From Bacteroidetes bacterium SCGC AAA795-G10 (GTDB taxonomy: Bacteria; Bacteroidota; Bacteroidia; Flavobacteriales; Flavobacteriaceae): a stretch of DNA of 64,000 nucleotides. The notes under the pieces were generated by a model. That model did no database searches and was not told the origin of the DNA. It worked only from the letters and a program-made list of their open reading frames with translations. Both the position numbers and the translations under genes were made by a program. Below are positions 15,392-46,425 of this stretch, piece after piece. Position 1 is the first letter of the stretch; each line of letters begins with the position of its first letter. The stretch spans positions 386,131 through 450,130 of the forward strand of contig QFDA01000001.1 in the NCBI GenBank assembly GCA_003130815.1, written 5' to 3'.

Positions 15392-16441
15392 GTGTTAGAA
15401 GATAAAAAATCCACCAATACTCCCTTAAGTAATTTAGGAGAGTTTGCTCTTATCGAACATCTAACAAAAAACTTCAATCTCATAAACAAGTCTAGCCTTC
15501 TAGGAATAGGTGACGATGCTGCTATTATTAATGATAAAGGTAAATCAACTTTGATTACTACAGATTTGTTAATTGAAGGTATACATTTTGACCTTGGCTA
15601 TGTCCCTCTAAAACATTTGGGTTATAAATCAGTGATGGTCAATCTTTCTGATCTTTATGCAATGAATGTGTATCCAAGTCAAATCACAACATCAATTGCA
15701 GTATCCAATCGTTTTTCTTTGGAAGCTCTTGAGGAAATTTATAAAGGAATTCAGTTGGCATGTAAAAATTATGATGTAGACCTTGTAGGAGGCGATACTA
15801 CAAGCAGTAAAACTGGCTTGATTATATCAATAACCGCAGCTGGATTTGGTGATAAAAATAGAATTGCTAATAGGAAAGGCGCAAAAGAAAATGATTTATT
15901 GGTTGTAAGTGGAGATTTAGGTGGTGCATATGTAGGATTACAGGTGCTAGAACGCGAAAAAGCAGTTTTTAAAGTTAATCCAAATACCCAGCCAGATTTA
16001 AGCAAATACTCTTACTGTATTGAAAAACAATTGAAACCAGAGGCAAGAAAAGATGTAATTAAACTTTTAGATGAATTAGAAGTTATACCAACTTCTATGA
16101 TTGATATAAGTGACGGGTTGTCTTCAGAAATATTACATCTTTCAAAATCTTCTAATGTAGGCTTTTACCTTTTTGAAGAAAAAATCCCAATAGATCCTCA
16201 TGTAAATTTAATTTGTGAAGAATTTAAATTTAACCCTACAATAGCTGCTTTAAACGGAGGAGAAGATTATGAATTGCTTTTTACAATTAGTCAAAATGAT
16301 TTTGATAAAATTAAAGATCATCCTTTCCTAACAGTTATAGGTCACGCTTGTGATAAAAAAATAGGTTGTCAAATGATTACAGGTCTAGGTCAACAAATAG
16401 AATTAACAGCTCAGGGATGGCAATCCTTCTCCAAAATTTAA
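15392..16441 (+). CDS. thiL: Thiamine-monophosphate kinase
   Basis: ThiL phosphorylates thiamine monophosphate to thiamine pyrophosphate. The AIR synthase-like fold shows the expected metal and phosphate motifs: GIGDDAAII (about residues 41-49), TTDLLIEGIHFD (about 59-70), GGDTTSS near residue 133 and MIDISDGLSSE near residue 236. Length is 349 aa. No in-frame ATG precedes the conserved GEFALIEHLT start region, so the GTG at 15392 is the likely start. It is convergent with the ZIP transporter gene with no gap. In this genome it would provide the last step for the putative thiamine salvage operon at 39-45 kb. Confidence 0.94.
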   Translation: MLEDKKSTNTPLSNLGEFALIEHLTKNFNLINKSSLLGIGDDAAIINDKGKSTLITTDLLIEGIHFDLGYVPLKHLGYKSVMVNLSDLYAMNVYPSQITTSIAVSNRFSLEALEEIYKGIQLACKNYDVDLVGGDTTSSKTGLIISITAAGFGDKNRIANRKGAKENDLLVVSGDLGGAYVGLQVLEREKAVFKVNPNTQPDLSKYSYCIEKQLKPEARKDVIKLLDELEVIPTSMIDISDGLSSEILHLSKSSNVGFYLFEEKIPIDPHVNLICEEFKFNPTIAALNGGEDYELLFTISQNDFDKIKDHPFLTVIGHACDKKIGCQMITGLGQQIELTAQGWQSFSKI

Positions 16442-37890: not shown

Positions 37891-38346
37891 TTGAAACAAG
37901 TGACTAAAAAATTTGATTTTGTCCAAAATGTAATTCTATTTCTCTTCTTAATATTGGGCTGTAGTAAAGATCCCATTCAAAGAAATCCGTATTTAGCAGA
38001 TATTCGGTTCCAAAGAGATTTAAATCTATCTCTACCTCTGTATAATCAGCTAAATTTTGTTGGCGGAAGCATTTTTATCCCAGATATAGGGATTAAAGGG
38101 GTTATAGTTTTTAATCTAAGTGGAAGCACTTTTTTAGCTTGGGAAGCAACTTGTCCAAATCATCTGCCAGATTCCTGTTCTAAATTATCTATTTCTGGAG
38201 TTTTAGCAGAATGTAGTTGTGAGAATTTTCAATACAGCCTTGCAACCGGTCAACTTTTAAATCCTAGTGAAAAACTGAATCCACCCAGAGATTTATTATT
38301 TTATCAAATTCAAAATTTTAATGGTATTTTAAGAATATCAAACTAA
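37891..38346 (+). CDS. Rieske-like lipoprotein with altered ligand motifs
   Basis: A lipobox ends at Cys24 (LILGC). The C-terminal two-thirds look like a Rieske-type domain: a beta-rich core, then CPNH (Cys88, His91), Cys96, and ECSCENF (Cys108, Cys110). The canonical second CxxH is missing, so a normal 2Fe-2S site is unlikely without other ligands. The only starts are TTG 37891 or GTG 37900; no ATG precedes the signal peptide. It is followed 12 bp later by an outer-membrane protein gene. Function is unknown. Confidence 0.7.
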   Translation: MKQVTKKFDFVQNVILFLFLILGCSKDPIQRNPYLADIRFQRDLNLSLPLYNQLNFVGGSIFIPDIGIKGVIVFNLSGSTFLAWEATCPNHLPDSCSKLSISGVLAECSCENFQYSLATGQLLNPSEKLNPPRDLLFYQIQNFNGILRISN

Positions 38347-38357
38347 ATCATTTATAG

Positions 38358-39131
38358 ATGTTTTTTAGTAAAAATTCAATATCAATAACCCTAACTATTT
38401 TTCTTTTTTTCATTTTTATATCTTGGAATTGTTTTGGCCAAATGCTTGAATTAGATTATTCAAAACAAAAACGAGAAGAAAGTATTTTTAACGTCCATTT
38501 AATTAGAACTGGGATACTGGGAATAAGTAGTTTAAAACATTTGGATTTTACAGTAGAGGTTTTAAAACTTCGCTTTGATGCAAAAAAAGGTAGCCATATT
38601 GACTTCACCTTGTATGGAACTCAAACCATATGGAATGGAAATCGTAAAAATTTGCTTAATACTTTTGATTTTTTAATGAATCCCATTGGCGGAGACATTA
38701 ATTCAAACCTTTTCTTTACTTATCCTCTTTCAAATAAGGATCTTAAAAACTCTAAAATTGGTTTAAGTATCGGTAAAAAATGGATTCAAGGACAACCGCT
38801 ACCGAACTTCCAGAATAATTCATTTTTTGATAATTATGGGCGTTTTGGATTTATATATCAAAGTACAATAGCCGAAAATCCTATTAATAATAGTGGTCTA
38901 TATTTTTGGACGTTCCCATCTCTAATAATGCATCAAGGAACAGCAGAAAGTAGACGTCAATTTCTTAACAATAATCTAGATACATTCGCATATGGATATG
39001 CGATTGAACTGGGATTAGAATATAATACTCAATTAAAAGTTACACTACTAGGTCAGCAAATTCTCAATGCTGAACCTAGAGGGGGTTTTGATCAGTTTGT
39101 TGCTCGTTTAATCTTAGGTTATCGTTTTTAA
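38358..39131 (+). CDS. Predicted outer-membrane beta-barrel protein
   Basis: A signal peptide (about residues 10-28, ending ISWNCFGQ) is followed by about 225 residues with alternating hydrophobic strands. The C-terminus is aromatic (FVARLILGYRF), typical of outer-membrane barrels inserted by BamA. I do not recognise a named family. It forms a pair with the preceding Rieske-like lipoprotein and overlaps the convergent TonB receptor gene by 4 bp. Its cargo, if any, is unknown. Confidence 0.7.
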   Translation: MFFSKNSISITLTIFLFFIFISWNCFGQMLELDYSKQKREESIFNVHLIRTGILGISSLKHLDFTVEVLKLRFDAKKGSHIDFTLYGTQTIWNGNRKNLLNTFDFLMNPIGGDINSNLFFTYPLSNKDLKNSKIGLSIGKKWIQGQPLPNFQNNSFFDNYGRFGFIYQSTIAENPINNSGLYFWTFPSLIMHQGTAESRRQFLNNNLDTFAYGYAIELGLEYNTQLKVTLLGQQILNAEPRGGFDQFVARLILGYRF

Positions 39132-41353
39132 AACTTGATCATAAGTCCCGTGAGGAAGTTTATTCCTGCTTGGGGATAAAATCCTGCACCTTCAATAGTT
39201 GTAATTTTACCTGGTACTGACCATGTATCATTATATGTGTAGAAATATCCATTTGACTCGTACTGCTTATTTAAGAGGTTATTTATAAGAAATGAGCACT
39301 GAATTTCTTTTAGCAACTTATTTGGCCTCCACACATATGAAATATTTAGATCATTTATAAAATAAGAGGGAAGAATCGAGTATTCAGAATCTATATTCCC
39401 CATATATTGCTTTCCAACAAATTTTGACAATAATGTAATTTGAAAATTTGTTGAAGCTGCATAAGTTAATGAGCTTCCTGAGATAAAGTTTGGTGAATAA
39501 GCTAACTGCGTTTTACCTAAATCAACCAACTCTCCATCCCTTTCAAAAATAAAATCTAAATTTTGATTACTACTTAAAGCTAAGTTTGGTTGCCACACCC
39601 AATTCGGAAGAAGCTTCATTTTTATCTCTAATTCTAACCCAACACGTCTGCTTTTACCCACATTTTGTCGAATTGGAGCACCTACTTCATCAATTGCACC
39701 CGTCAAAACTAATTGATCTTTATATTCCATCCAGTATAAGTTAGCCTGTGCTTGCATCTTTGTAGTTTTTATTCTCCATCCCAACTCAAAGTCGTCTAAC
39801 TTTTCAGGTTTAGGGTTTCCATTTTCATAATCAGTTCTGTTTGGCTCCCGATGAGCTTTTGCATAAGATGCATAAAGCTTTTGCTTATTAGATATTGTAT
39901 ATGTTAGACCTGCTTTTGGGTTAAAAAATAAAAAATTGTCATTTACTGAAAAAAAACTAGGACCTGCAATTTCACCTGACACTTCATAGTTAATAGAGCG
40001 AAGTTGAAAATCAATAAATCCAGATAAAGACCCAATTACAACTTGATTTACTTTTGCAAATAAACTCCCTTCCGTTTTAATTCCTTGATTTTCATAAAAT
40101 CGATGGTTGGGAAGCGCTTCTCCCAAGCTTTGCCCCCATATAAGATTTCCAAAATGGTCACCAACATACCTGCTAGCTAAACTGCCAAAGTTAAACTCAG
40201 AATTTTCCTTTTTACAATTTAATGCGAAAGTCAAAACATAATAATCATTATCTAACCATTTCTGGCTTATATTTTCTGATGAGCTGATAATCTTTTCTCC
40301 AACTTGAAAAGGTGAAAGTTGAAGATAATTGAAACTAGTATCATCGCCAAAACTTATGTTTTCGTTGTACCAAAGATCATTATACTCTTCATAAAATCCA
40401 CTTCCATGTGTATAATTTAACCCTAAAGCAAAGTCCCAATACTGATTTAAACTCTGGTTCCAATGGAACTGGTAATGTTCCTGAGAGTAGTTGTCTACTT
40501 GATTATCATAAAATGAAAAACGATTACCATTTTCATCATAAATTTCCCCTGCAGGATTATAGGTTCTGTTTGATTCTAATGTAGAGGGGTCAACTCCATA
40601 CCAAGACTGGTAGGTTATCTCTTTACCTCCAAAGAATAGTGCTTTTAAATGTGTGTTTTCGTCTCTAAATACCCCCTGGAAAAAATATGCGTCTAAATCT
40701 GAAGAAGCTCTATCAATATATCCATCAGAATTAATCTGAGATAATCTTCCTGAAAAAGTAAAACTATTATTAAGCTCCCCAGAAGAAAATTGCAATGTAT
40801 TTTTTAAAGTATTAAAACTTCCAATACTAGAAGCAAGTGACGCAAAAGCTTCTTTTTTTACAGAATCTGTTTGCAAATTTAAACTCGCTCCAAATGCAGA
40901 AGATCCATTTGTTGAAGTCCCCACTCCTCTTTGCAATTGAATTGATTCTACTGAAGAAGCAAAATCTGGCAAATTTACCCAGAAAGTTCCTTGGGATTCT
41001 GAATCATTATATGGTATACCATTAATTGTAACATTGACTCTTGTCGCATCACTCCCTCGCACACGAATGCCAGTATATCCTATTCCTGCTCCCGCATCAC
41101 TGGTTGTAACAACTCCAGGTAAATAGTTTAGTAATATTGGAATGTCTTGTCCTAAATTTCTAGGCGCTAAGTCTTGCCTACTTACATTAGTAAAAGTGAC
41201 TGGAATGTCATCTTTTGCTCGAATTCCTGTTAGTAAAACCTCTTCCAAACTAATTGTTTTAAGAGAATCTTTAATTGTCTCTGAGCTTGGTTGTTGAGCT
41301 AAAAGAACAGTTGCATTAAAAACTAAAAAAAAACTTAATCGTATAGTTTTCAT
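39128..41353 (-). CDS. TonB-dependent outer membrane receptor, probably for thiamine
   Basis: This 741-residue receptor has a signal peptide (about residues 1-19), a TonB-box-like region (SLEEVLLTGIRA near residue 33), a plug domain with GIRVRGSDATRVNVTINGIPYNDSE, and a C-terminal barrel ending in an aromatic residue (GLMIKF). A TPP riboswitch lies in its leader, which in Bacteroidota marks thiamine (pyrophosphate) receptors. The upstream genes encode a thiamine-binding protein and a PnuC-type carrier. Thiamine specificity is inferred from this regulation and context. Confidence 0.88.
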   Translation of the reverse strand: MKTIRLSFFLVFNATVLLAQQPSSETIKDSLKTISLEEVLLTGIRAKDDIPVTFTNVSRQDLAPRNLGQDIPILLNYLPGVVTTSDAGAGIGYTGIRVRGSDATRVNVTINGIPYNDSESQGTFWVNLPDFASSVESIQLQRGVGTSTNGSSAFGASLNLQTDSVKKEAFASLASSIGSFNTLKNTLQFSSGELNNSFTFSGRLSQINSDGYIDRASSDLDAYFFQGVFRDENTHLKALFFGGKEITYQSWYGVDPSTLESNRTYNPAGEIYDENGNRFSFYDNQVDNYSQEHYQFHWNQSLNQYWDFALGLNYTHGSGFYEEYNDLWYNENISFGDDTSFNYLQLSPFQVGEKIISSSENISQKWLDNDYYVLTFALNCKKENSEFNFGSLASRYVGDHFGNLIWGQSLGEALPNHRFYENQGIKTEGSLFAKVNQVVIGSLSGFIDFQLRSINYEVSGEIAGPSFFSVNDNFLFFNPKAGLTYTISNKQKLYASYAKAHREPNRTDYENGNPKPEKLDDFELGWRIKTTKMQAQANLYWMEYKDQLVLTGAIDEVGAPIRQNVGKSRRVGLELEIKMKLLPNWVWQPNLALSSNQNLDFIFERDGELVDLGKTQLAYSPNFISGSSLTYAASTNFQITLLSKFVGKQYMGNIDSEYSILPSYFINDLNISYVWRPNKLLKEIQCSFLINNLLNKQYESNGYFYTYNDTWSVPGKITTIEGAGFYPQAGINFLTGLMIKF

Positions 41354-41373
41354 TTGAATAAATTAATTCAAAT
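41352..41373 (-). promoter_or_regulatory. Start-codon hairpin of the TonB receptor leader
   Basis: ATTTGAAT and ATTCAAAT (8-bp arms) with a 6-nt loop form a hairpin whose 3' arm on the mRNA includes the first two bases of the ATG. It could close the start region when TPP is bound. This is the likely expression platform, with control at translation. Confidence 0.5.
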
Positions 41374-41415
41374 AAAAGGGGCGATTATTTGGTGTTAAAA
41401 TTACGTTTTTATTAT

Positions 41416-41485
41416 TCCCTTGGCAGCATTACCCGCCCAGGTTCAATGGGTATGATCTCAGCCATTAACGGCACCCCTTTGAGAT
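41416..41485 (-). ncRNA. TPP (THI-box) riboswitch
   Basis: Read on the minus strand, the aptamer shows all conserved blocks in order: GGGGTGCC (41478-41471), GGCTGAGA (41464-41457), ACCCATTGAACCTG (41452-41439) and GGGTAATGCTGCCAAGGGA (41435-41417). Together they match the thiamine pyrophosphate-sensing domain. It lies 60 bp before the TonB receptor start and 25 bp after the DUF4301 stop. It should turn down the receptor when TPP is high. Confidence 0.95.
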
Positions 41486-41510
41486 TGTCTATAAAATTAA
41501 TTAAAAATTT

Positions 41511-43016
41511 CTATCTAATTAAATCTATTACCGATTTGACTGGATTAAATGTTTCGGAAGGAAGTTGAATAAAAATTGTATTCCACTCTGCCATTCCCCC
41601 GTTCCATAAACCGGGCCATTCAAGAATTTTGATTGGTTTATTTTTAAATATTTTTTTGCTTATCATGGCCCTTTTTTCATCTCTAAAATCCAAAAGAGAA
41701 TATTTATCTCCTTTGTGATCAGTTATTCCACAAACCATAATTACCGGGTTAAAGTGAGTGCTAGAGCGAATTGCATTTTTGTGTTCTTCAATACTATGAT
41801 CAAATTCAACTCCTTCAATTATTTGAAGGCTTTGACCTCTTAAATCATTTTTCCAGAAGGGCCCACCACCAGTAGCACCTTTATTTGGTATCATACCACA
41901 AATACGAATAGGGCGATGTAAATAGTCGTAAAGCACTTCATACAGTGGCTTGCTTTCTACCTTATAATTATATTCTGGGTCAAAATTTTCCTTAATAAAT
42001 TTGATTATTGGTCCTAGATCCAGACCTTCTTTTAATTGTTCTAAATTATTTAGATGCTCAAAAAGATCTTTTTGAATCATCAGGAGTTTTCCCGCTAAAA
42101 TTCTCATCCATTCTTCTCCAATTTCATTTGATTTGCCAAAGAGAATATTATCTATATTTTTTATCCAAATACAATCTGCATCTAATAGATTTATATTTTC
42201 TAGCAAAGAGCCGTGTCCTCCTTTTCTAAATTCAATATTGCCTTGCTCATTGCGTACTAAAAAATTCTTTCGATCTATAAATGGTGTATCTGTAAGACGG
42301 TTCTGGTGGGAGTATTGAACATCAAAAGAAACCTGATGCGTACTATTTAATTTTTTCTTAAAAGAATCTAAAGATTTGTCAAATAGTTCCCTATGATTTT
42401 TATCAATTGTTAAATGAAGAGGAATTAAATTTTTCTGATCACTTAGGTTTATCGCCTCAAGTAATTGGGCTTCAAATGGTGACCATTCTTGAGCATTATT
42501 ATCAATAAAAAAGGGAATTAAGGCCTTTGGGAAGGTTTCATATTTAGATAAAATCTCATTAATAAATTTTTTTAAAAATAAGTTTGAATACATCATTTCT
42601 TCATCAATTTGTCCTGAGAGTGATGAGAAAATAGATTCAAAAAATGGTAGCTTTTTAAATTGTTTTTTAAGCTTTTGAATAACTAAGCCTTCTTCCGATT
42701 CAAAATATTTTAATAAGTCAAAATTCGGTTGCTCACTTGCCTCAATATAATTTTGGAGTGATGAAAACATTCGACTTGCTACACCAGAGGCAGGTACAAA
42801 TTTAATCCATCTTTTTTTTTCTGAATTAGTGTTAAAATATTGTAAGGCGTTATTTTTTTCTTTAGTATCCATTTCTAATATTCCATCCCCAATTATTGCG
42901 GGACGGATACCAGAAATTTTTATTTTTTCCCCCACCAAATGCTCATATTGCCTTTTTATGAGCTCTAACGATCTGCCATCTGCTTTTATGCTATCAAAAT
43001 CTTTTTCTGTAATCAT
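41511..43016 (-). CDS. DUF4301 protein in thiamine operon
   Basis: This 501-residue cytoplasmic protein matches DUF4301, a Bacteroidota family of unknown function. Visible landmarks are IRPAIIGDGILEMD near residue 40, KKRWIKFVPASGVASRMF (about residues 68-85), and C-terminal GMIPNKGATGGGPFWKNDLRGQSLQIIEGVEFDH. The glycine-rich GATGGGPFW loop and GDGI segment are reminiscent of nucleotide- or sugar-phosphate-binding proteins, but I cannot assign an activity. It overlaps the NadR-like kinase gene by 4 bp (ATGA), and the riboswitch-controlled TonB receptor follows. Confidence 0.82.
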   Translation of the reverse strand: MITEKDFDSIKADGRSLELIKRQYEHLVGEKIKISGIRPAIIGDGILEMDTKEKNNALQYFNTNSEKKRWIKFVPASGVASRMFSSLQNYIEASEQPNFDLLKYFESEEGLVIQKLKKQFKKLPFFESIFSSLSGQIDEEMMYSNLFLKKFINEILSKYETFPKALIPFFIDNNAQEWSPFEAQLLEAINLSDQKNLIPLHLTIDKNHRELFDKSLDSFKKKLNSTHQVSFDVQYSHQNRLTDTPFIDRKNFLVRNEQGNIEFRKGGHGSLLENINLLDADCIWIKNIDNILFGKSNEIGEEWMRILAGKLLMIQKDLFEHLNNLEQLKEGLDLGPIIKFIKENFDPEYNYKVESKPLYEVLYDYLHRPIRICGMIPNKGATGGGPFWKNDLRGQSLQIIEGVEFDHSIEEHKNAIRSSTHFNPVIMVCGITDHKGDKYSLLDFRDEKRAMISKKIFKNKPIKILEWPGLWNGGMAEWNTIFIQLPSETFNPVKSVIDLIR

Positions 43017-43579
43017 TTATTCGATCTTAGTTCATTCAAAACTTTTTTTGCCTTGTTTATTCTTTCTCTAAGCGTCCCTTTTAATACAGTATAGGGTAAT
43101 CTTTTAATTTCTAGTAATTTTTTGAAATACTCAAACATTTCTTCTCTGTTGTTTGGTCTGTCTCTTAAATCATCTTCTTGCCAGGGGATATCAATTGCAG
43201 TTAAAAAATAATAATCATATTGAAAAATCTTAGTATATTTTTCAATTTCAGGTGGGCAATACCCATCAAAATGTGTTTCTGCCCAAATTTTTGTAACTAA
43301 AATATTTGTATCACAGAAAACAAATTTCTTAGCACTTCTTAATGCCTCATTCTCCAACTTAATCTGACCTCTTACTATTAGAGATAAATCATTTAGATTG
43401 CAAACCTCTTTTTTTTTATCCCATTTTTCTTGAAGATAATTCCTTGCATATTCTGATACCCAAGAAGTATTGTATATAGCTGCTAGAGTTTTTGCTAAAG
43501 TAGTTTTACCAGAAGACTCAGGGCCATAAAGAACAATTTTTAAACAATCTGTTTTTTTTTGTAATATATCTTTAACCAT
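43013..43579 (-). CDS. NadR-like vitamin kinase (P-loop NTPase)
   Basis: This 188-residue protein has a Walker A motif GPESSGKTT near residue 19 and resembles the ribosylnicotinamide kinase domain of NadR, without its adenylyltransferase domain. SEYARNYLQEKW (about residues 38-49) and FCDTNILVTKIW (about 87-98) fit that family. It overlaps both neighbours, the PnuC-like carrier by 40 bp and DUF4301 by 4 bp. In PnuC systems such a kinase traps the imported vitamin. Here the substrate is likely thiamine (to TMP) because of the riboswitch and thiamine-binding neighbour. Nicotinamide riboside remains possible. Confidence 0.8.
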   Translation of the reverse strand: MVKDILQKKTDCLKIVLYGPESSGKTTLAKTLAAIYNTSWVSEYARNYLQEKWDKKKEVCNLNDLSLIVRGQIKLENEALRSAKKFVFCDTNILVTKIWAETHFDGYCPPEIEKYTKIFQYDYYFLTAIDIPWQEDDLRDRPNNREEMFEYFKKLLEIKRLPYTVLKGTLRERINKAKKVLNELRSNK

Positions 43580-44172
43580 TGGATGTATCCAAATATAGCA
43601 ATTAGCGTGAAAACAAAGTATTGAATACTTGTAATTGCTAAGCCTTTATATAAATATAATGGTATAGAAATAAGATCACCAATTATCCATAAAACCCAAT
43701 GCTCCAATTTTCTTTTTGCCATAAACCACATTGCAACAAAAAAGACTGCCGTCGTAAAGGTGTCAATGGGAGCAGTCCATTCAGTCCACTTGCCAAATAA
43801 ATAGTAAATAAGAGAAATAAAAATTATTGAACATGTAAAAAGTAATATTCCTAATTTAATTTCCGTTCTGTTAATTTTTAAAATAGGATTTAAAATTTGT
43901 CCATCTTTTTTTTTACTCCAAAAATACCATCCATAAATACTCACAATGAAAAAATAAGCATTAATAAGCATGTCTCCTAAAAGCCCTGCTTTAAATAATA
44001 AATAAACAAAAATTGAAGTAGAAAGCATTCCTGTCGGATACACAAGAACCTTATCTTTTTTTGCAAACCAAACACTGGTTAAACCCAAAATCACAGCAAA
44101 GATTTCTAAAATAACATCCAAGATGTCCAAATCTTGATTAGGGCGAATTAAATATTCAAAAATCTGGTTCAT
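43540..44172 (-). CDS. pnuT: PnuC family vitamin transporter, probably PnuT (thiamine)
   Basis: This polytopic inner-membrane protein has about seven hydrophobic segments. PnuC-family features are LEIFAVILGLTSVWFAKKDKVLVYPTGMLST near the N-terminus, and WIIGDLISIPLYLYKG with a WMAKRKLEHW segment near the C-terminus. PnuC proteins carry vitamins by facilitated diffusion, coupled to phosphorylation. ATG 44172 is chosen over 44187 to give a 17-bp rather than 32-bp overlap with the thiamine-binding gene. Context (TPP riboswitch, thiamine-binding protein) points to thiamine; the symbol pnuT is inference. Confidence 0.82.
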   Translation of the reverse strand: MNQIFEYLIRPNQDLDILDVILEIFAVILGLTSVWFAKKDKVLVYPTGMLSTSIFVYLLFKAGLLGDMLINAYFFIVSIYGWYFWSKKKDGQILNPILKINRTEIKLGILLFTCSIIFISLIYYLFGKWTEWTAPIDTFTTAVFFVAMWFMAKRKLEHWVLWIIGDLISIPLYLYKGLAITSIQYFVFTLIAIFGYIQWLKIYYKKKQIV

Positions 44173-44419
44173 AATGGCTCCGATCACCTTTCATCATTTT
44201 AATGTGTAACATTACAGCATCTTCATCCTCAAATGTTTTACGAATCATAGGTATAATCATATTCATAACCTCATCATATTCACCATAGATCTGAGTGCTT
44301 AATGGAGTCTCATTAATTATGACTTTAAGCTTTCTAAGTTTTTTTATAAAGCTTTTGATTGTAGGAACGTAATTATCTTTTAGTGGAGCTAAAGTTAATT
44401 CAACTGAAATTTTCATCAA
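44156..44419 (-). CDS. Small thiamine-binding protein (MTH1187/YkoF-like)
   Basis: This 87-residue protein has one ferredoxin-like domain of the thiamine-binding MTH1187/YkoF type: an N-terminal strand ISVELTLAPL, KLKVIINETPLSTQIYGEYDEVM, and MLHIKMMKGD. Members bind hydroxymethylpyrimidine or thiamine. There is no signal peptide, so it works in the cytoplasm. It starts right after the phosphopantetheinyl transferase gene and overlaps the PnuC-like gene. This strengthens the thiamine assignment for the operon. Confidence 0.78.
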   Translation of the reverse strand: MMKISVELTLAPLKDNYVPTIKSFIKKLRKLKVIINETPLSTQIYGEYDEVMNMIIPMIRKTFEDEDAVMLHIKMMKGDRSHYEPDF

Positions 44420-44420
44420 T

Positions 44421-45050
44421 TTAAAATTTAGAAGTCGCTAAGCTCAAGCAAAACCTTTCGTAATATCTAAAATAAAGATTATAAATATAAGTTTTTCCTT
44501 TATCATAAACTGAACCAAATCCAATTGAACTAGACTTACTAGATTTTTGAATATGCAACTGGGACTTAAAATTTATACCAGGTGTACTGTAAATTTTGTA
44601 TAACGCTTCTTTAGCTGTCCATATCTTGGTCAAGTATTTTATATCAGTAAAATCTTGAGATGCTTCAGTCTCTTCAATATTTAAAAAACGTGGTCCTATT
44701 TTTTTAATTTTCTCTCGATAAAATTCTAAATCAATTCCAACTTTTTTGTCAGATACAGCAACCGCAGCGAAGTTTCTAGAATGAGTAATTGAGAGATATC
44801 TTCCATCAATTAAATAGGGTGCACCATTTTGATCGTATTTATTACTTCCAGGAGGAATATCAAGTTTTTTTAATAACTGCCTTGTCGCTAAGTACCCTTT
44901 TCTATGAACATGACTTTTAAGTTGATTTAATTTTTTTTTTTCAATATTTGAGATTGTTAATCCTTCTGAGAGTTCATCTTCCGACTCTTCTATTTCCCAA
45001 ATGGAAAATTGGGTTAAATTTTTAATTGATTCTTGAAAAAATTCAGGCAT
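44421..45050 (-). CDS. 4'-phosphopantetheinyl transferase
   Basis: This enzyme loads the phosphopantetheine arm onto acyl-carrier proteins. The Sfp-type magnesium and CoA motifs are GIDLEFYREK near residue 110 and WTAKEALYKIY near residue 148. The SITHSRNFAAVAVS segment precedes them. Length is 209 aa. It is the first gene of the minus-strand operon that continues with the thiamine genes, with a probable promoter in the ahcY intergenic region. A link to thiamine is not obvious; the two may just share transcription. Confidence 0.9.
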   Translation of the reverse strand: MPEFFQESIKNLTQFSIWEIEESEDELSEGLTISNIEKKKLNQLKSHVHRKGYLATRQLLKKLDIPPGSNKYDQNGAPYLIDGRYLSITHSRNFAAVAVSDKKVGIDLEFYREKIKKIGPRFLNIEETEASQDFTDIKYLTKIWTAKEALYKIYSTPGINFKSQLHIQKSSKSSSIGFGSVYDKGKTYIYNLYFRYYERFCLSLATSKF

Positions 45051-45105: not shown

Positions 45106-46425
45106 ATGAGCACAAAAATATCACAATATACTCCTTACAAAGTAAAAGACATTTCTCTTGCAGAGTGGGGTAGAAAAGAAATAAAACTCGCTGAAAAGGA
45201 AATGCCTGGCCTAATGGCATTAAGAAAAGAATATGGGTCTAAGAAACCTCTTAAAGGAGCTCGTATAGCTGGCTGCCTACATATGACTATCCAAACTGCT
45301 GTGCTAATTGAAACCTTAGTAGAACTTGGCGCGGATGTTACATGGAGTTCATGCAACATATTTTCTACACAAGACCATGCTGCAGCTGCCATCGCAAAAG
45401 CAGGTATACCAGTATACGCTTGGAAAGGAATGACAGAAAAAGAATTTAATTGGTGTATTGAGCAAACAATTCATTTCGGTGAAGATAAAAAGCCTCTAAA
45501 TATGATTTTAGACGATGGTGGTGACTTAACGAATATGGTTTTGGATAATTATCCAGAATTAGTAACCGAGATAAGAGGTCTTTCTGAAGAAACAACAACT
45601 GGTGTTCATCGTTTGTATGAAAGATTTAATAATGGAACATTACCAATTCCTGCAATAAATGTAAATGATTCTGTTACAAAATCTAAATTTGACAACAAAT
45701 ATGGCTGTAAGGAAAGTGCTGTTGACGCAGTGCGCCGTGCAACTGATATTATGCTCGCAGGAAAAAGAGTTATTGTCTGTGGATATGGTGACGTCGGAAA
45801 AGGAACAGCTGCTTCATTTAGAGGTGCTGGAGCAATCGTCACTGTTACAGAAATAGACCCAATCTGTGCACTTCAAGCTTCAATGGATGGTTATGAGGTT
45901 AAGAAATTATCAACAGTTATAAAAGATATGGATATCATCTGTACTGCAACTGGAAATAAAGATATTGTATGCGATGATCATTTTCTTGCAATGAAAGATA
46001 AAGCTATCATATGTAATATAGGTCATTTTGATAATGAAATCGATATGAGTTGGTTAAACGAAAATTATGGACATACAAAATCTGAAATCAAACCTCAAGT
46101 TGACTTGTATACTCTAGAAAAAAATAAACAAATAATAGTTTTAGCTGAAGGCAGGTTAGTAAATCTTGGTTGTGCAACTGGACATCCGAGTTTTGTAATG
46201 AGTAACTCTTTTACTAATCAAGTTCTAGCTCAGATTGAATTGTGGAAAAATTCTGATTCATATGAAAATAAGGTCTATATGTTACCTAAAACACTAGACG
46301 AAAAAGTCGCTTTGCTTCATTTAAATCATCTCGGAATAGAATTAGAGGAGCTTTCAAAAGATCAAGCGAGTTATATTGGTGTAAAAACAGAAGGGCCTTT
46401 CAAACCAGAATACTATCGATATTAG
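45106..46425 (+). CDS. ahcY: Adenosylhomocysteinase
   Basis: This enzyme hydrolyses S-adenosylhomocysteine to adenosine and homocysteine with bound NAD. The substrate part has [17 protein letters not shown] and the Cys in [16 protein letters not shown]. The NAD-binding motif is CGYGDVGKG near residue 224. The C-terminus ends with [13 protein letters not shown], the typical tail. Length is 439 aa. It has its own promoter and terminator, so it is a single-gene unit. Confidence 0.97.

Follow-up and report, generated by a model that had tools for sequence, protein, structure and literature searches.

The window analysed here, a 64,000-nucleotide stretch of Bacteroidetes bacterium SCGC AAA795-G10 (Flavobacteriaceae; contig QFDA01000001.1, positions 386,131 to 450,130), carries a group of genes and a thiamine pyrophosphate (TPP) riboswitch that quite probably form a thiamine salvage set. 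The set would comprise a TonB-dependent receptor, a PnuT-like carrier, a NadR-like thiamine kinase, the thiamine-monophosphate kinase ThiL and a TPP switch that hides the start codon (AUG) of the receptor, with a DUF4301 protein that stands apart from the pathway. The parts are ordinary and their consistent arrangement is new: a predicted NadR-like thiamine kinase, a lead for DUF4301 and a TPP platform that buries the AUG.

In the proposed pathway, thiamine would cross the outer membrane through the TonB-dependent receptor and the inner membrane through the PnuT-like carrier, would be trapped by the NadR-like kinase as thiamine monophosphate (TMP), and would be converted from TMP to TPP by ThiL; thiamine is thus the inferred substrate of both carrier and kinase. 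ThiL lies on the plus strand at 15392–16441 (TIGR01379, 293.6 bits, cut-off 184), as recorded in the first-pass annotation, which was made from the letters of the window alone, and its use of imported thiamine makes a thiamine kinase necessary.

The candidate for that kinase, a NadR-like P-loop protein predicted to convert thiamine to TMP (43013–43579, minus strand; AAA_28, 133 bits), matches NadR chains by profile (E 2.9e-27), and its predicted fold matches NadR kinase domains (Foldseek E 1.8e-10); the NadR family models score it well under their cut-offs. The protein has 188 amino acids and covers only positions 165–318 of the 325-position NadR model, with no nicotinamide mononucleotide (NMN) adenylyltransferase domain. 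Its distribution was followed in a sample of 296 Bacteroidota genomes, in which thiamine pyrophosphokinase (TPK, scored by PF04263) occurs in 148, the kinase profile in 75 and ThiL over its cut-off in 222. Setting aside eight genomes with only NadR-length proteins leaves 67 with a stand-alone or DUF4301-fused kinase, a count that also includes one genome (G072) in which the kinase is fused to an aldose 1-epimerase domain. That fusion is a 498-residue open reading frame (ORF; L248:4666-6159, minus strand; AAA_28 112 bits, aldose 1-epimerase 106 bits) adjoined by PnuC and by a TPP motif with a receptor.

Outside one genus (g2), TPK is found in none of the 53 kinase genomes and in 131 of the 226 genomes lacking the kinase. 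ThiL exceeds its cut-off in all 67 kinase genomes, as expected of a kinase that would stop at TMP, compared with 65 of 134 genomes having TPK without the kinase and 90 of 95 having neither; TPK is present in 69 of the 74 genomes below the ThiL cut-off. A swapped member, with TPK and without the kinase (G017), occurs within family f4. The kinase is missing and PnuC retained in six genomes (G084, G154, G289 and those of loci L101, L123 and L139), all of which have TPK, while two Aquimarina genomes (L121, L133) that have lost both kinase and carrier have no TPK but do have ThiE-family genes; in all eight, loss of the kinase goes with the presence of TPK or of ThiE-family genes. In other families the kinase stands directly ahead of a TPP motif and receptor, with no DUF4301 in the locus (L184, L195). 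That the window protein is a thiamine kinase that has displaced TPK is well supported by these gene distributions.

The carrier (43540–44187, minus strand) belongs to the PnuC family (Pfam NMN_transporter, 174 bits; NCBIfam PnuC, 97 bits, cut-off 42). In a tree of 40 of 158 PnuC rows, retained after thinning at 60% identity, it falls in a group of 19 (SH-aLRT 98) made up of 15 kinase-linked or kinase-fused carriers, two unlinked ones and two TPK-linked ones (L211, L212), the last two coming from receptor–PnuC–TPK gene sets. All 13 NadR-linked carriers lie outside this group, and the window protein is predicted from its placement to be a PnuT-like thiamine carrier. Only three TPK-linked PnuC carriers were found, with 20 further TPK loci examined.

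The database names of kinase and carrier (Pfam, NCBIfam) point instead to salvage of nicotinamide riboside, in which PnuC would import the riboside, the NadR-like kinase would make NMN and the thiamine elements would be chance neighbours. The closest solved structures to the kinase are indeed NadR kinase domains, and in the PnuC tree six kinase-linked carriers from other families join 12 NadR-linked carriers (support 80). As the main function, this was rejected as very unlikely on five grounds: the complementarity of the kinase with TPK, its constant association with ThiL, the grouping of the window PnuC with TPK-linked carriers, the presence of NadC and NadD in the host assembly, and the occurrence of true NadR with its own PnuC as a separate locus beside the stand-alone kinase in the same genome, for example G182. 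The first-pass annotation had favoured thiamine over nicotinamide riboside, with the NadR-like kinase replacing the pyrophosphokinase and ThiL completing TPP; the genome counts, the PnuC tree, the host genes and the pattern of kinase loss support it on both points.

The host assembly (1.93 Mb, 101 contigs, 88.7% complete) contains ThiL, NadC and NadD, so NAD synthesis need not depend on the window kinase. ThiC, ThiE and TPK were not found in this 88.7% of the genome, and ThiK-like kinases were not searched for. ThiC is present in only 12 of 60 sampled genomes of the window’s family, most of which therefore probably require external thiamine or a precursor, and the host itself is probably a thiamine-requiring flavobacterium.

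Several observations weigh against thiamine salvage by this kinase and carrier, in addition to the six carriers noted above. Kinase and TPK occur together in 14 genomes, all of genus g2 (Flavobacterium, judged from named loci), and the counts of kinase, TPK and ThiL take no account of relatedness. In the kinase tree (46 of 170 rows after thinning at 60% identity) the family f37 kinases cluster with NadR domains. A long branch isolates one kinase-linked carrier (L217), and L232, the third of the TPK-linked carriers, lies outside the PnuT group. The host absences are provisional, given the fragmented assembly, its completeness and the ThiK-like kinases left out of the search.

The aptamer of the TPP riboswitch (THI element; 41399–41488, minus strand) was found by a permissive Rfam scan of 41000–41800, matching RF00059 over the full model (positions 1–105) with 48.7 bits and E 2.1e-8. 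The score is under the gathering score of 54.3, and a default Rfam scan of the window therefore shows nothing. The element is the only TPP aptamer in the host assembly at E 0.001. It directly precedes the receptor alone, being downstream of the kinase, carrier and DUF4301 genes; the riboswitch that the first-pass annotation had placed ahead of the TonB receptor is real, despite its score. The conserved cores CUGAGA, ACCC, GAACCUG, GGUAAUGC and AGGGA are all present, and the same element precedes the same receptor in relatives. By cores and context it appears to be a TPP aptamer of a diverged type.

The conserved 5′ edge of the aptamer, UCUCAAAGGGG (41474–41484, minus strand), includes AAAGGGG, complementary to a CCCCUUU run at 41381–41375. 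Of the 53 loci, from a total of 64, that show the upstream motif, 50 retain the pattern UCUC[AU]A(n)GGGG. Just 5′ of A(n)GGGG, the conserved UCUCA (41480–41484, minus strand) is complementary to UGAGA of the ligand-binding CUGAGA, and three of the five Rfam P1 pairs are non-standard in the window aptamer. Flavobacterial aptamers may therefore use a different P1, or a decoy pairing in the ligand-free state. Rfam at its gathering score found no TPP element in eight Flavobacteriaceae loci, in seven of which a relaxed motif finds it; a relaxed-score Rfam scan of three loci gave 38–40 bits for L124 and L125 and fell short of E 0.001 for L101. The Rfam cut-off missed every flavobacterial element tested (the window, seven of the eight loci, L124 and L125), so B1 regulation in flavobacteria is likely to be under-annotated.

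Between the aptamer and the receptor lies a conserved two-hairpin platform with the consensus AAGAATAATTGCCCCTTTTATTCGTA(loop)TACGAATGAAA, located in the window at 41348–41392 (minus strand) and found at the receptor starts of 61 further loci. Hairpin X (41370–41390, minus strand) pairs AAAUAA with UUAUUU (41390–41385 with 41375–41370) and holds CCCC in its loop. Hairpin Y (41351–41374, minus strand; stem 41374–41367 with 41358–41351) buries the receptor AUG at 41353–41351. The two hairpins share the strand UUAUUY and are mutually exclusive. The CCYC run of the platform is complementary to the GGGG of the aptamer, the two stretches in the window being the CCCCUUU and AAAGGGG (41480–41474) already described; GGGG and CCCC are paired in the minimum-energy structure of the window RNA (z −2.07; 6 of 200 shuffles fold equally well).

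Of 89 unique receptor upstream regions, 64 carry the platform pattern; a strict TPP pattern is matched in 45 of these and not in the other 19. A further eight upstream regions have the strict TPP pattern and no platform. Across all loci (6.4 Mb, both strands) there are 69 matches, of which 64 are at receptors, one (L127) is another instance of the element, at the end of a contig, and four lie elsewhere. After removal of identical segments, 62 of the 64 rows remained. Full pairing is predicted for the receptor AUG in 61 of these 62 loci; shuffled sequences reach it in 204 of 3100 cases, and the start codons of other genes, located crudely as the first in-frame ATG, in 13 of 375. In 61 of the 62 loci this AUG also shares the reading frame of the receptor; the exception, L115, for which the script chose a wrong start, is also the sole locus without a buried AUG.

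Covariation was assessed on 44 CCCC-type rows, with 18 CCUC-type rows left out. In hairpin Y, 98.9% of cells pair and three pairs are changed on both sides, with 30–50% pairing in slid controls; in hairpin X all 264 cells are paired and one pair is changed on both sides, in the window (A-U for G-C), whose sequence alters hairpins X and Y together. Taken together, the platform predicts translational control of the receptor. In the direction inferred for the switch, TPP would bind the riboswitch and draw the aptamer GGGG into P2, releasing CCCC; hairpin Y would close over the receptor AUG and receptor translation would stop. Without TPP, GGGG would pair with CCCC in the loop of X, an antisequestering state that would leave the AUG open.

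Four features of the data count against this model. Sliding hairpin Y by −1 yields similar covariation (0.098 vs 0.107), with 37.5% of cells pairing, so that the evidence for Y comes more from pairing than from covariation. Hairpin X hardly varies, and its values are matched by 26 of 500 shuffles. The unconstrained ligand-free fold of the window RNA also forms hairpin Y, and X would therefore need the loop contact to win. The lengths of the A-run and U-run correlate (rho 0.81) in 36 loci, drawn from the 45 unique ones that have both elements after those without a clear GGGG motif were dropped, a correlation that is confounded, with two clades carrying most of it.

Many TPP riboswitches act by termination, and the element could likewise stop transcription between DUF4301 and the receptor. 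This is unlikely at a locus whose conserved hairpin includes the AUG itself, and five or more T within the next 10 bases follow in just 1 of the 62 loci. In another order, thiamine did not significantly alter the transcript levels of two Bacteroides thetaiotaomicron transport operons that follow TPP elements, and the same study calls the level at which TPP riboswitches act in Bacteroidetes uncertain (PMC5613172). The TPP model of a 2026 covariation study rests on terminator-type sequences (PMC13273304). The preferred model of translational control makes the platform a concrete and mutable model for TPP switches in Bacteroidota.

The DUF4301 protein (41511–43016, minus strand; Pfam DUF4301, 438 bits, cut-off 27) was modelled from a 42-row alignment with a mean pLDDT of 88.9. 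Foldseek's 40 best rows for the model consist entirely of UDP-glucose and UDP-N-acetylglucosamine pyrophosphorylases (E from 9e-10), and VIA-align superposes it on Leishmania UDP-glucose pyrophosphorylase with Z 23.5 over 330 residues (rmsd 3.4). By sequence, Pfam UDPGP does not match the window protein; the best DUF4301 relative reaches 18.5 bits against a cut-off of 22, in a scan of 18 genomes that touched one protein. In a profile comparison, the C-terminal FNPVK..DL aligns with FLPVK..DL of human UGP2 (E 0.0029, probability only 10.8). A search against solved structures by sequence gave a lone chance match (E 1.9), which was rejected. Sixty columns are invariant across the 42 DUF4301 sequences, so the protein is likely to be an active enzyme. 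Most likely, judging from the predicted fold, it is a separate enzyme resembling UDP-sugar pyrophosphorylases that rides in the operon, and it is probably not a thiamine enzyme. The predicted fold is a first biochemical lead for the DUF4301 family.

DUF4301 occurs in 51 of the 296 sampled genomes, 27 of these being among 30 sampled from the window’s family, and a profile scan of the genome collection found at least 80 named loci. Of the 80 listed, 59 were classed as Flavobacteriaceae-type by the presence of PnuC, 4′-phosphopantetheinyl transferase (PPT) or S-adenosylhomocysteine hydrolase in the locus; the split is set by neighbours, so that the absence of PnuC from the other 21 is true by definition. 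In the 59, kinase and DUF4301 are neighbours in 45 and fused in nine; the kinase is absent, with PnuC kept, in three (L101, L123, L139), and both are absent in two (L121, L133). The other 21, none of them named as Flavobacteriaceae, have no kinase beside DUF4301, and the 24 DUF4301 loci of sampled genomes outside the window’s family have no partner genes. Ten neighbours of DUF4301, one of them from inside Flavobacteriaceae, were scanned with Pfam and share no theme: the nine from outside are two TPR proteins, a PagL-like protein, NifU, a carboxyltransferase, a cation efflux protein, a weak DUF6770 match, a keto-disaccharide hydrolase and an aldo/keto reductase.

DUF4301 could nevertheless genuinely cooperate with the kinase in using thiamine, perhaps as a nucleotidyltransferase acting on TMP or TPP. 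The predicted fold is that of a nucleotidyltransferase, the gene lies beside or fused to the kinase in 54 of the 59 Flavobacteriaceae-type loci listed, the fusions occupy three separate places in the tree, and each of the 51 sampled genomes with DUF4301 encodes the kinase or TPK. Such a partnership is nonetheless quite unlikely: the association is confined to one family (0 of 24 sampled and 0 of 21 listed loci outside it), the scanned neighbours have nothing in common, DUF4301 persists after loss of the kinase (L101, L123, L139) or of kinase and carrier (L121, L133), the last two in genomes with neither kinase nor TPK, and the kinase is found without DUF4301 (G029, G088, G107). A role as substitute for TPK or ThiL was rejected, ThiL being present in 67 of 67 kinase genomes and the 24 DUF4301 genomes outside the family having TPK in 18 and the kinase in the other six. 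The first-pass annotation had counted DUF4301 as part of the thiamine set and proposed its co-occurrence with thiamine genes in other genomes as a check; outside Flavobacteriaceae this came out against a thiamine association, and the retention of DUF4301 where the cassette is lost, together with its predicted fold, speaks against the role in thiamine metabolism.

The kinase–DUF4301 fusions were placed on a FastTree tree of 89 DUF4301 proteins, where they occur in Flavobacterium, in Croceivirga (L078) and in G198/L067. Three gains of the fusion would be the simplest reading. The 21 outside sequences fall on one side of the tree (support 98), and the window row sits on a long branch. These fusions suggest some functional tie that the assignment of DUF4301 as a separate enzyme does not account for. 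A bolder version, in which kinase and DUF4301 would together form a NadR-like two-step kinase and nucleotidyltransferase for thiamine, first making TMP and then joining TMP or TPP to a nucleotide, is highly improbable; if true, the nucleotidyl-thiamine could be a storage form, signal or cofactor, and the wide DUF4301 relatives would act likewise on TMP or TPP from TPK or ThiE. Two further DUF4301 records were noted. In G289 the gene is broken into two overlapping ORFs (L056:8337-9856, plus strand), with no kinase and with TPK present. Locus L108 (contig CALPPA020000034.1) comes from a record titled as a Klebsiella pneumoniae metagenome-assembled genome; its DUF4301 groups with Flavobacterium, and the contig is probably mis-binned or mislabelled.

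All six minus-strand ORFs of the run described in the first-pass annotation were confirmed in position and family. In addition to the genes above, they include PPT (44421–45050, minus strand; Pfam ACPS, 36.0 bits), probably an operon passenger, which is found upstream in this gene set at many loci of Flavobacteriaceae, and a small thiamine-binding protein of the MTH1187/YkoF type (44156–44419, minus strand; Pfam Thiamine_BP, 26.5 bits, cut-off 24.9), present in 38 of the 59 Flavobacteriaceae-type and none of the other 21 DUF4301 loci listed. The TonB-dependent receptor, a predicted thiamine receptor of the OMthi/omr1 type (39128–41353, minus strand; Pfam barrel 94 bits, plug 49 bits), lies directly behind the TPP element. 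PPT and the thiamine-binding protein genes are separated by 1 bp; the latter overlaps PnuC by 32 bp, PnuC the kinase by 40 bp and the kinase DUF4301 by 4 bp, and the riboswitch lies inside the 157-bp gap between DUF4301 and the receptor. S-adenosylhomocysteine hydrolase is encoded at window positions 45106–46425.

In relatives, a protein of the PcrB family and one with an RF-1 domain also belong to the gene set, each identified from a single scanned representative. The usual order in Flavobacteriaceae is PPT, (PcrB-like), thiamine-binding protein, PnuC, kinase, DUF4301, (RF-1-domain protein), TPP element and receptor, with gaps and moves between loci. Since PPT, PcrB-family and RF-1-domain proteins share the set, adjacency is weak evidence, and assignment of function from the operon alone was rejected. 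The first-pass annotation was right about the gene set, and comparative evidence supports its thiamine salvage, without DUF4301 in the pathway; it missed the start-codon hairpin platform and the kinase–DUF4301 fusions in relatives.

Two plus-strand ORFs of 151 and 257 amino acids (37891–39131), without a Pfam match, converge on the receptor gene, the second overlapping its end by 4 bp. In three Flavobacteriaceae loci a Flavo-1 RNA (RF01705) lies near the hydrolase and PPT genes (L101:4305-4382, L125:3666-3741, L064:3752-3826).

A NadR-like thiamine kinase, if true, would account for how imported thiamine becomes TMP in genomes that lack both TPK and ThiE, and the ‘nicotinamide riboside’ names given to this kinase and carrier in databases would need correcting. 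In the literature searched, which excluded most subscription journals, no description of such a kinase or of an AUG-burying TPP platform was found, and DUF4301 comes up in one paper.

Among known systems, the set resembles the Bacteroides OMthi–PnuT–tnr3 (TPK) system (PMC5613172) in having a TPP riboswitch before a TonB receptor, a PnuC-family carrier and a trapping enzyme. It differs in that thiamine would be trapped by a NadR-like kinase, with TMP as the expected product and ThiL needed in addition, and in that the carrier and kinase genes are upstream of the riboswitch. As in PnuC–NadR salvage of nicotinamide riboside, a PnuC-family carrier adjoins a kinase of the NadR kinase-domain family, whereas the window-type kinase, alone or fused to DUF4301, lacks the NMN adenylyltransferase domain and the window carrier groups apart from NadR-linked carriers. 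DUF4301 shares its predicted overall fold with the UDP-glucose and UDP-N-acetylglucosamine pyrophosphorylases (Pfam UDPGP), at approximately 14% identity and with no Pfam UDPGP match over the cut-off. The aptamer has the conserved ligand-binding cores of the TPP riboswitch family RF00059, and is set apart from it by a score under the cut-off, the UCUC[AU]A(n)GGGG edge, the non-standard pairs in P1 and the platform that buries the AUG of the receptor.

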